This document shows positions 27,004 to 29,977 of a DNA stretch of 42,601 nucleotides, one piece after another (the first letter of the stretch is position 1; every line of letters starts with the position of its first letter). The translations under genes and the position numbers were made by a program. The notes under the pieces were generated by a model. The model saw only the letters and a program-made list of their open reading frames with translations. It did not search any database and was not told where the DNA came from. This DNA is from Spirochaetia bacterium (GTDB lineage Bacteria > Spirochaetota > Spirochaetia > PWKH01): positions 1 through 42,601 of the forward strand of contig SKJE01000083.1 in the NCBI GenBank assembly GCA_007116075.1, read 5' to 3'.

Positions 27004-27578
27004 GGGGTTCTCTTTTTTCGCCGCTTTGGAACCTTTTTTCGCTTTCTAGGTTTCTTGAGCTGACCGTTAAATGCGGCAAGTTCGAGTGTCTTATTAAGCT
27101 CTTCCTTAATCAGGGCTATCTGCTCGCGCATCTGCTGCATCATCTGTTCATGGTGAGCGGTGCTTGCCTCTGAGCGGATGGGGGGGCTTTCTTGTAAAAG
27201 AATTTTTTTTTTACCCTCATCAGCAGTCTCAGGATCAGGTGATGGTTGTGGTGCATCCAGGAGCATCTGGGTCTCTGATAGGGATGCATTGCGGTTGCGC
27301 TGCAGGGATATCTGGATGGAGAGCATGGCGAAAAAAAGCACCAGGTTAACCATGGAGGGGGCAAAGGCAGCTGCAAGTTCCCGGGTCTCCATGATGAGGG
27401 TATCTCCGGGTGAGGCAAGATAGAGCATATAACCGCGATATGCGCTGTTTATGATAAAGGCGAGGGTAGGTAGAATCCAGTAGATACCAAGTCCCCTGGA
27501 AAAAATCAGGGAAAAGGCAATTAAGAATGGCAGCAGGGAGATGGCCGTCTGGATTAACTCAATAGTAAATAGATTCAT
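27000..27578 (-). CDS. Unrecognised membrane protein with coiled coil and very basic tail
   Basis: 192 residues from ATG 27578; an upstream in-frame start at 27629 would overlap the palindrome and adds a charged, unlikely N-terminus. Three membrane segments are visible: about 6-26 (IELIQTAISLLPFLIAF), 31-48 (IYWILPTLAFIINSAYRG) and 67-87 (SMVNLVLFFAMLSIQI). A coiled-coil-like stretch follows at about 140-172 (HEQMMQQMREQIALIKEELN), then a tail of Lys and Arg (KKPRKRKKVPKRRKKRTP). A run of ten A residues in the coding strand (27203-27212) encodes Gly-Lys-Lys-Lys. No family recognised. It heads the aroK-aroC-nitrilase unit. The tail could bind nucleic acid or acidic lipid. Confidence 0.7.
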   Translation of the reverse strand: MNLFTIELIQTAISLLPFLIAFSLIFSRGLGIYWILPTLAFIINSAYRGYMLYLASPGDTLIMETRELAAAFAPSMVNLVLFFAMLSIQISLQRNRNASLSETQMLLDAPQPSPDPETADEGKKKILLQESPPIRSEASTAHHEQMMQQMREQIALIKEELNKTLELAAFNGQLKKPRKRKKVPKRRKKRTP

Positions 27579-27607
27579 ATCTGTTCCGTTCTTTTTTTTC
27601 TCACGTG

Positions 27608-27633
27608 ATCTATGATAGTATACTATCATAGAT
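27608..27633. promoter_or_regulatory. Perfect 26-bp palindrome over the dgt start, with symmetric -10 elements
   Basis: Each half is ATCTATGATAGTA and its reverse complement, with no spacer (13+13). The centre contains TATACT on both strands (plus 27619-27624, minus 27622-27617), so it can serve as -10 for dgt and for the divergent membrane-protein gene. The plus-strand -10 ends 7 nt before ATG 27632. A site of this symmetry fits a dimeric repressor or a bidirectional promoter. It is not the NrdR box (ACAC...GTGT). Confidence 0.7.
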
Positions 27634-28771
27634 GAACAAACTAGGGAATAAGATCATGGAAAATTACCTTTCGAATGAGATGCTCCACAAGCGGGCTGTA
27701 CCAAGACAAGCTGATATCAGGGGGGATTACTTCAGGGACACCACAGCAATCCTTCACTCATACCCGTTTCGTCGATTAAAGAATAAAACTCAGGTCTTCT
27801 ATGCTCCCCAGAATGACCATATCTGCACCAGGATTGAGCACGCCTTCCATGTATCCACCATTGCCGCTGCTGTCTGCAAGGGGCTGGGACTTGACGACGA
27901 ACTTGCCTGGGCTGCAGGACTTGGGCATGATCTCGGACACGCACCCTTCGGTCATACCGGGGAGCGGGTGCTGGGAGAGCTGACCGGTGAGTTTATCCAT
28001 GAACTGTTCTCCCTTCGGGTGGTAGATATGCTTGCCGGATATGGCGAGGGGCTTAATCTCACCTATGCGGTGCGTGATGCCATTGTCTGCCACTGCGGAG
28101 AGCAATTTGAACAACGCCTGACGCCAAGAAATACCCTTCTTTCCCTGGAAACGCTGGAGGACAGGACCGCAATCCCTGCAACCTGGGAGGGAGTGGCCGT
28201 GCGGTTTGCAGATAAAATAGCCTATGTCGGAAGGGATATTGAGGATGCCCTGCAGCTGAAACTGATCAAGCAGGATGACCTGCCCAAGGCTGCCGCCGGT
28301 TTGCTCGGCAGGTCAAACCGGGATATCATCAATACCCTGGTGCAGGATTTGATTGCATCTTCCCGGGATGGTGAATATATCGGCATGTCCAGTGATGTGT
28401 ATGAGGCGATGATCGAATTGAAGGATTTTAATTATCGTCGTATCTACCGCTCCCCCATGCTTACCGGATATTATGACTACTTTTACCGGATGATAAGTCT
28501 GCTCGATGAATACCTCATGGAGCTATTTGACCGATGGGGTTTCGAATCAGATGAGTATAAACAGGAGAAGAACCTGCTTTCCGCACGGTTCGGGGACTAC
28601 GTGAATAAAATGAAGAAAGCCTACACCTCTTCCGGAGAACCATCAACCCAGATCGTGCTGGATTATGTGGCAGGGATGACCGATACCTACGCTCTTGCCT
28701 GTATACAGGAGATTCTCACTCCCCGGCACATGCATGATAAGTTCAATCAGTTTATACTGGAGCATGATTAA
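27632..28771 (+). CDS. dgt: dGTP triphosphohydrolase-like HD protein
   Basis: 379 residues from ATG 27632; a start at ATG 27656 (371 aa) has AGGGA 8 nt upstream and is equally possible, while 27632 fits a leaderless transcript. The HD-domain ligands are clear: RIEHAFHVSTIA, AAGLGHDLGHAPFGHTGE, then AVRFADKIAYVGRDIEDAL. YPFRRLKNKTQVF at the N-terminus matches the dNTPase family. It should hydrolyse dGTP or other dNTPs to the nucleoside and triphosphate, in balance with ribonucleotide reductase. nrdR, the reductase repressor, is convergent with it and overlaps it by 4 nt. Confidence 0.9.
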   Translation: MNKLGNKIMENYLSNEMLHKRAVPRQADIRGDYFRDTTAILHSYPFRRLKNKTQVFYAPQNDHICTRIEHAFHVSTIAAAVCKGLGLDDELAWAAGLGHDLGHAPFGHTGERVLGELTGEFIHELFSLRVVDMLAGYGEGLNLTYAVRDAIVCHCGEQFEQRLTPRNTLLSLETLEDRTAIPATWEGVAVRFADKIAYVGRDIEDALQLKLIKQDDLPKAAAGLLGRSNRDIINTLVQDLIASSRDGEYIGMSSDVYEAMIELKDFNYRRIYRSPMLTGYYDYFYRMISLLDEYLMELFDRWGFESDEYKQEKNLLSARFGDYVNKMKKAYTSSGEPSTQIVLDYVAGMTDTYALACIQEILTPRHMHDKFNQFILEHD

Positions 28772-29235
28772 TGGTGTTTGTCTGAAGTGAGTTTCCCGAT
28801 TTCAGCAATGAACTGGTCTACATCATCGAACATACGGTACACCGAAGCGAACCTGACATATGCGATGGGGTCAAGCGCATACAGTTTCTCCAGGATCATC
28901 TCTCCCAGTTCACGGGAGGTGATTTCCCGTTTATTCCCTGCCTTCAGTGCGGCACCATCCTCGATTTCACCGAGGATCTGTTCGATGCTGTTCTGGCTTA
29001 CATTCCGTTTTTCCAGAGATTTCTGCAGCCCCCGTTCAAGTTTTCCTAAATCGAAGGGTTCCCTTCGGCCGTCCCGCTTCACTACTTTGAGCGGTTTTTC
29101 CTCTATGTACTCGTAGGAGGTATAGCGGTAGGTGCACTTGAGACAGGCTCTTCTTCTTCGGATGGTTGTACCACTGGAATTCTGCCGTGACTCAAGAACC
29201 CGATCATCCAGGCTCCCGCAATGTGGACATCTCAT
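28768..29235 (-). CDS. nrdR: Transcriptional repressor NrdR
   Basis: 155 residues. The zinc ribbon has Cys3, Cys6, Cys31 and Cys34, with RRRRACLKCTYRYTSYE. The ATP-cone follows (VVKRDGRREPFDLGKLERGL), ending ALDPIAYVRFASVYRMFDDVDQF. NrdR senses dATP/ATP and represses nrd genes at paired NrdR boxes. AAGGAGG is 4 nt before the ATG. No nrd gene or NrdR-box pair is seen in this window. An inverted repeat at 29249-29267 lies immediately upstream. Confidence 0.96.
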   Translation of the reverse strand: MRCPHCGSLDDRVLESRQNSSGTTIRRRRACLKCTYRYTSYEYIEEKPLKVVKRDGRREPFDLGKLERGLQKSLEKRNVSQNSIEQILGEIEDGAALKAGNKREITSRELGEMILEKLYALDPIAYVRFASVYRMFDDVDQFIAEIGKLTSDKHH

Positions 29236-29248
29236 TGATCCTCCTTAG

Positions 29249-29284
29249 GGATAGTTGCAAACTATCCTCTATTGTGGTTATACT
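29249..29284 (+). promoter_or_regulatory. Promoter of the wHTH-ACT gene with an operator-like inverted repeat on the -35
   Basis: TTGCAA (29255-29260), 18-nt spacer and TATACT (29279-29284). The inverted repeat GGATAGTT-GCA-AACTATCC (29249-29267) covers the -35 and also lies just upstream of the nrdR ribosome-binding site on the other strand. A protein binding here would affect both divergent genes. The half-site GATAGT also occurs in the dgt palindrome. Confidence 0.6.
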
Positions 29285-29314
29285 AACAGAAAGTACATAC
29301 TGAAACAAGGTAAT

Positions 29315-29977
29315 ATGAAAACCGTTAGCAGCGCTGTAAAAGATATAATTGAGATGCGCCCCTTTTTGCTCGAAGCGATGATCAGGGGGATACTCAGTTT
29401 TAAGAGTCTCGCCGAAGAACTCAGAGAAGAAATTGAATATCAGACAGGCAGGGATGTTACCCAGTCCTCCATTGTCATGGCTCTGAGAAGATACTCCGAT
29501 GAGCTCAAGACCCTCAGGTCTCAGTTCATCGAGCCTGATATTAACTATGAGATAGCCATGAAGACTCATATTTTTGACATCAACCTGGTAAAGGATGATG
29601 TGCTGCTGGATACGCTCCATCGGGTCTACCATCTGGTATCTATCCAACGGGGAGATTTCCTCAACGTCAGTATCGGTTCCAGTGAAGTGAGTATTGCCGT
29701 CAGCCAGAAGTACAAGCAGCAGCTGCTGGATCTGTTCAAGCCGGAACAGGTGATCCATGCCCAGGAGGACCTGGTTGCGGTAACGGTGATCTTTACCGGA
29801 GATTTTGTCCATACCCCCGGGGTCATCTATGAGGCGGTCAGGAAGCTTGCCTGGGAGAACATTAATGTCTACGAGATTATTTCGACCACCAGTGAGCTTA
29901 CCTTCGTGGTGTCTATAGAGGATTCCATGAAGGCCTTTGAATCACTTAAGTCTTTTCTCTCATTACCTTCACGGTAA
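29315..29977 (+). CDS. Probable winged-helix + ACT-domain regulator
   Basis: 220 residues from ATG 29315, with AAGG 5 nt upstream; an in-frame upstream start lies within the promoter. The N-terminal 75 residues (IEMRPFLLEAMIRGILSFKS, then a helical LREEIEYQTGRDVTQSSIVMALRRY) resemble a small winged helix seen with ACT domains in archaea and some bacteria. The C-terminal part has two segments with ACT-like pattern (DFLNVSIGSSEVSIAVSQ; VAVTVIFTGDFVHTPGVI; INVYEIISTTSELTFVVS). ACT domains bind amino acids or other small ligands, so a ligand-responsive regulator is likely. Target genes are unknown; autoregulation at 29249-29267 is inferred. The 3' end overlaps the 54-aa gene by 32 nt. Confidence 0.65.
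   Translation: MKTVSSAVKDIIEMRPFLLEAMIRGILSFKSLAEELREEIEYQTGRDVTQSSIVMALRRYSDELKTLRSQFIEPDINYEIAMKTHIFDINLVKDDVLLDTLHRVYHLVSIQRGDFLNVSIGSSEVSIAVSQKYKQQLLDLFKPEQVIHAQEDLVAVTVIFTGDFVHTPGVIYEAVRKLAWENINVYEIISTTSELTFVVSIEDSMKAFESLKSFLSLPSR

Follow-up and report, generated by a model that had tools for sequence, protein, structure and literature searches.

A perfect 26-bp palindrome between dgt and a divergent gene in an uncultured spirochaete: a candidate bidirectional promoter core

Homodimeric repressors of the TetR, MarR and GntR types act at palindromic operators that overlap the -10 element of a promoter. Symmetry also occurs in promoters themselves, and symmetric -10 elements that drive divergent transcription are by now established, with the polymerase of E. 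coli and Salmonella binding such promoters in either orientation, according to the accessible portions of two reports (PMC12825309, PMC10268837). In the same portions, a bidirectional promoter is defined by divergent starts 7-25 bp apart (PMC10268837), and starts most often stand 18 bp apart, distances of 10 and 23 bp being common too (PMC12825309). As for NrdR, the accessible part of PMC12051234 states that two boxes are required, separated by a spacer of 14-17 or 24-27 bp.

The element considered here lies at 27608-27633 of the window (the whole stretch of DNA analysed, 42,601 nucleotides from an uncultured spirochaete), where ATCTATGATAGTA followed directly by TACTATCATAGAT forms a perfect 26-bp palindrome, assigned to no strand, with arms of 13 and no spacer, exactly where an earlier note on this DNA had placed it. 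Gapless perfect palindromes of the window number 36 with an arm of 5, 12 with an arm of 6, 2 with an arm of 7 and this one with an arm of 13, which makes it the only one with an arm of at least 8. Among 100 first-order Markov copies of the window, arms of 11 came up at 0.01 per window and arms of 12-13 never. Extrapolating with a roughly four-fold fall for each extra pair, by our own arithmetic, the chance expectation for an arm of 13 is 4e-4 to 6e-4 in the window and about 0.03 in a genome of 2.2 Mb. Nor is the palindrome surpassed in 221,634 bases from this genome (the window together with fetched stretches, overlaps counted), where the runner-up has an arm of 9. The perfect dyad exceeds chance expectation for the window and is unusual, as the earlier note had held; that an arm of 13 should arise by chance somewhere when many genomes are scanned is not impossible.

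On one side of the palindrome lies dgt (27656-28771, + strand), a dNTP triphosphohydrolase gene with the Pfam domains HD and HD_assoc, whose product matches the NCBIfam dGTPase models strongly, in every case below the curated cut-off. The palindrome had been described as running into the dgt ATG, and it does overlap an ATG at 27632 that is in frame with dgt. The likely start, however, is the ATG at 27656, since it is preceded by AGGGAA, a stretch resembling a ribosome-binding site, and is kept in the two genomes of the same genus returned by the search (G001 and G002), where CTAGGGAACAA with the ATG after it aligns to CTAGGGAATAAGATCATG of the window; the ATG at 27632 is without counterpart there. 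With this corrected start the palindrome is intergenic, 22 nt from the dgt ATG and 29 nt from the ATG at 27578 of the divergent gene, in agreement with the distance of about 30 nt given earlier. This divergent gene (P0001, 27000-27578, - strand) codes for a protein that matches no family of Pfam or NCBIfam at E values up to 0.1, and is called a membrane-protein gene from its hydrophobic N-terminus, judged by eye. Just downstream of dgt sits nrdR (28768-29235, - strand; TIGR00244, 178.9 bits, cut-off 124.65). Neither of the two immediate neighbours of the palindrome, dgt and P0001, codes for a DNA-binding protein recognised by Pfam or NCBIfam.

The central AGTATACT of the palindrome can be read as a -10 hexamer on either strand, the two hexamers overlapping in TATA; TATACT stands at 27619-27624 (+) and 27622-27617 (-), just as had been claimed. 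The former, placed at an aligned position in relatives, is a candidate -10 for dgt, and the latter, proposed from the symmetry of the sequence and also present in G001, G051, G031 and G005, a candidate -10 for P0001. From the hexamer positions, transcription starts are predicted at about 27631 (+) and 27610 (-), 21 bp apart, and the predicted leaders are short both ways, at about 25 nt for dgt and 32 nt for P0001. A sigma-70 scan of 27400-27800 returned no site reaching threshold, and no convincing -35 element was found: towards dgt the best match reaches 4/6 with a spacing of 15 nt and 3/6 with one of 17 nt, and in the other direction it reaches 2/6. Overlapping -10 elements of equal score arise in 7.6-64% of Markov copies (range over nine regions of AT-rich DNA), and in G003 and G005 the best-scoring overlapping pair stands at a place other than the aligned one. 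In a single region, an overlapping -10 pair is not beyond chance; the evidence lies in the fixed position of the hexamer and not in its symmetry alone.

Of these relatives, 42 of 60 genomes of the class, this one included, have dgt, and the 30 whose loci were given were examined. A homologue of P0001 lies divergently upstream of dgt in eight of the 30 (the genome under study, G001, G002, G003, G005, G006, G031 and G032), with matches that are weak in G005, G006, G031 and G032 (E 6e-9 to 6e-5, against a very small ORF set) and ORFs about twice as long in G006 and G032. All four family members returned by the search have the starts of dgt and P0001 in divergent arrangement. In G003 the P0001 family, which has no Pfam or NCBIfam match, is met a second time as a fragmentary match, on contig C92 (L039, L041). 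At the dgt locus of G051 no P0001 match was found, though the DNA core is the same as that of G031, and for this core G051 was added to the eight P0001 loci in a comparison of nine regions. Both G051 and G031 carry AGTATACT upstream of dgt; they belong to one genus, in another family, and are therefore not independent. The nine regions have in common a -10-like hexamer, picked by eye in each: TATACT, CATACT, TATCCT or TATAAT, with TATACT (5/9), TATAAT (2/9), TATGAT (1/9) or GATACT (1/9) at the same place on the opposite strand. It stands 31 nt before the dgt start in the genome under study, G001 and G002. In G003, which is of another genus, the distance is 33 nt, and in the five regions from other families it varies from 39 to 77 nt. 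Of the earlier suggestions the bidirectional promoter fares best, with its symmetric -10 hexamers, its fixed distance to dgt within the genus and its short predicted leaders.

The symmetry of the arms is a different matter. Over a 20-bp core, 10 of 10 pairs match in the genome under study (TATGATAGTATACTATCATA), 9/10 in G001 (TGTGATAGTATACTACCACA), 6/10 in G002 (TGTGGTATCATACTATCATA), 5/10 in G003 and 6/10 in each of G051 and G031. Loss of the palindrome in relatives, which had been named beforehand as counting against it, is largely what is seen outside the genus. Three positions set the core of G001 apart, and among them positions 2 and 19 mirror each other (A-T versus G-C); given three random changes, such a mirrored pair would be expected with a chance of about 0.05-0.1 by our own estimate, and it lends weak support to a constraint on the dyad. 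The operator suggested earlier is possible, with G001 and its one symmetric pair change in its favour and the next two genomes, together with the lack of a regulon, against it.

Further copies of the element were sought widely. With up to 3 mismatches allowed, the 20-mer has no second copy in the genome (93.9% complete), and the exact 20-mer is absent from viral contigs. Over the class, an 18-mer at up to 2 mismatches occurs in 4 of 60 genomes, this one included, and at the other three sites, all away from dgt, it overlaps an ORF (L002), stands 61 nt before one (L005) or lies between two (L003). With 3 mismatches or fewer, the 16-mer core has 8, 5, 12 and 5 sites in the genome under study, G001, G002 and G003, against 8, 2, 3 and 13 for the reversed 16-mer, and no consistent excess is seen over these four genomes. 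Away from dgt, 20 of the 27 16-mer sites were classified (7/7, 4/4, 4/11 and 5/5 in the same order), the G002 sites outside the classification being two adjacent ones on contig C108, which were viewed, and five others. ORFs start both ways at four of the 20 (L077, L078, L085 and L087), with L085 no longer divergent under a stricter ORF choice in a recheck that did not cover L078 and L087. These four sites led to an enrichment test for AGTATACT, based on crude ORF calling that classed the dgt site itself as near a 5' end. It lies between divergent genes at 6 of 34 sites and the control palindrome TCATATGA does so at 4 of 35; with sites near a 5' end added the figures are 11/34 and 9/35, which is no enrichment; the control contains ATG and is for this reason biased towards gene starts. 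There is no sign of a multi-site regulon, nor of a genome-wide use of AGTATACT at divergent promoters. In the literature, a full-text search with four pieces of 12-14 bases from the palindrome found a single paper, in which the piece belongs to a primer, and no palindromic operator stood out among the matches listed on the regulation of dgt, which leaves its absence unproven.

Taken together, we tentatively favour a reading, to which we give somewhat less than an even chance, in which the palindrome is a bidirectional promoter core for dgt and P0001 whose arms may be the operator of a dimeric repressor. A sigma-70-type core between dgt (+) and P0001 (-) would be bound by RNA polymerase in either orientation through the hexamers that overlap in the central TATA, with transcription setting out from one or the other predicted start. 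The arms, which flank AGTATACT with 9 bp on either side, would be the operator of a homodimeric DNA-binding protein, and a repressor bound there would lie over about -23 to +3 relative to either start and switch both genes off together. From the hexamers and the arms we infer the starts, the two-way activity and the repressor, whatever its identity; the operator is possibly there, as the perfection of the arms and a single sister genome (G001) suggest.

Nearly as likely is a bidirectional promoter with no regulator of its own, in which AGTATACT alone would be functional and the outer arms a lineage-specific accident. Outside the genus it is the TATACT-like hexamer that persists and not the arms, there is neither a second copy nor a regulon, and a palindrome expected about 0.03 times per genome by chance would readily come to notice, as readers of sequence select extremes. 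Such an accident sits less easily with the nine matching pairs and the pair changed on both sides in G001, and with a dyad placed exactly on the candidate promoter. An unlikely reading takes the palindrome as RNA, namely a hairpin with an 11-pair stem and a UAUA loop in a 5' leader transcribed from an upstream start, acting on the stability or translation of dgt or P0001. The predicted folding energies (-13.6 kcal/mol, z -2.0, on the + strand; -17.9 kcal/mol, z -3.9, on the - strand) are in its favour, but the orthologues fold no better than shuffled sequences (G001 z -0.45, G002 z +0.43, + strand only), and if the conserved hexamer is a -10 element most of the stem would be untranscribed. The promoter scan is indecisive here because it found no site upstream, yet none at the palindrome either.

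Two further readings would tie the palindrome to dNTP levels, as the earlier note had proposed, and both appear improbable. Dgt works on the same dNTP pool as ribonucleotide reductase, and with nrdR just downstream an NrdR-type or other dNTP-responsive operator linking dgt to the control of the reductase could be imagined. Against the 16-bp NrdR consensus, which we take to be ACACWATATATWGTGT, the stretch 27601-27640 scores 8/16 at best, and no match of at least 11/16 occurs in 27401-27700. The only reductase gene of the genome found by PF02867, a search that leaves the anaerobic nrdD outside its scope, carries candidate boxes of 13/16 (L069:840) and 11/16 (L069:881) upstream under the same consensus, and their starts within L069:840-896 are 41 bp apart. 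The resulting 25-bp spacer fits the 24-27 bp class in the accessible part of PMC12051234, whereas in 27401-27700 the palindrome is a single dyad and the two-box spacing described there is absent. An NrdR box at the palindrome was rejected on these grounds, and such an operator is scarcely credible; if NrdR acts in this genome, its place of action is likely the region upstream of the reductase and not the palindrome. A dedicated dNTP-sensing repressor of dgt and P0001, independent of NrdR, is given hardly more credence. Nor does the wHTH-ACT protein, earlier named as a candidate binder, hold up: its own promoter lacks the dgt dyad, and an 8-bp inverted repeat with a 3-nt loop between nrdR and the wHTH-ACT gene (29249-29267, GGATAGTT/AACTATCC) shares the half-site GATAGT with the palindrome but differs in spacing and, by eye, is not kept in G001-G003. 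The links of the palindrome to dNTP, NrdR and wHTH-ACT are unsupported.

The nrdR/wHTH-ACT intergenic region has a conserved element of its own. There TGTGATTATAATAACA is identical in G001, G002 and G003, corresponding to TGTGGTTATACTAACA at 29273-29288 of the window, and the promoter stretch 29255-29288 has matching stretches in L007, L008 and L009. In G001 and G002 a distance of 17 nt separates TTGCAA from the TATAAT downstream of it; in the window the distance to TATACT is 18 nt. Counted by eye, the dyad of the predicted promoter core is 7/8 in the relatives, against 5/8 in the window. The wHTH-ACT ORF (29255-29977) was called from a TTG at 29255; since this TTG opens the conserved promoter element TTGCAA, the probable start is the ATG at 29315 (MKTVSS).

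If the promoter is used both ways, dgt and an uncharacterised membrane protein would share one core element in a spirochaete family, which hints at a functional link between them, and if the arms bind a regulator they would offer a control point, other than NrdR, for a dNTP-degrading enzyme. Compared with known systems, the palindrome resembles the NrdR box pair as an AT-rich, palindrome-like element (16 bp for NrdR) at the promoter of a dNTP gene, but differs in sequence and in box number. With the operators of TetR, MarR and GntR repressors it shares a perfect dyad of suitable length, centred on a candidate -10 between divergent genes, whereas it has no immediately adjacent regulator gene, no second copy and no match to a recognised motif. 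The symmetric -10 bidirectional promoters of Warman, Grainger and colleagues have opposite-strand hexamers sharing central bases, as here, and the predicted start distance of 21 bp falls within the 7-25 bp in the accessible portion of PMC10268837; unlike in those promoters, the starts here are predicted and not mapped, and the dyad of 26 bp goes beyond what promoter symmetry needs. At present, the palindrome stands as an unusually perfect case of an arrangement already known.
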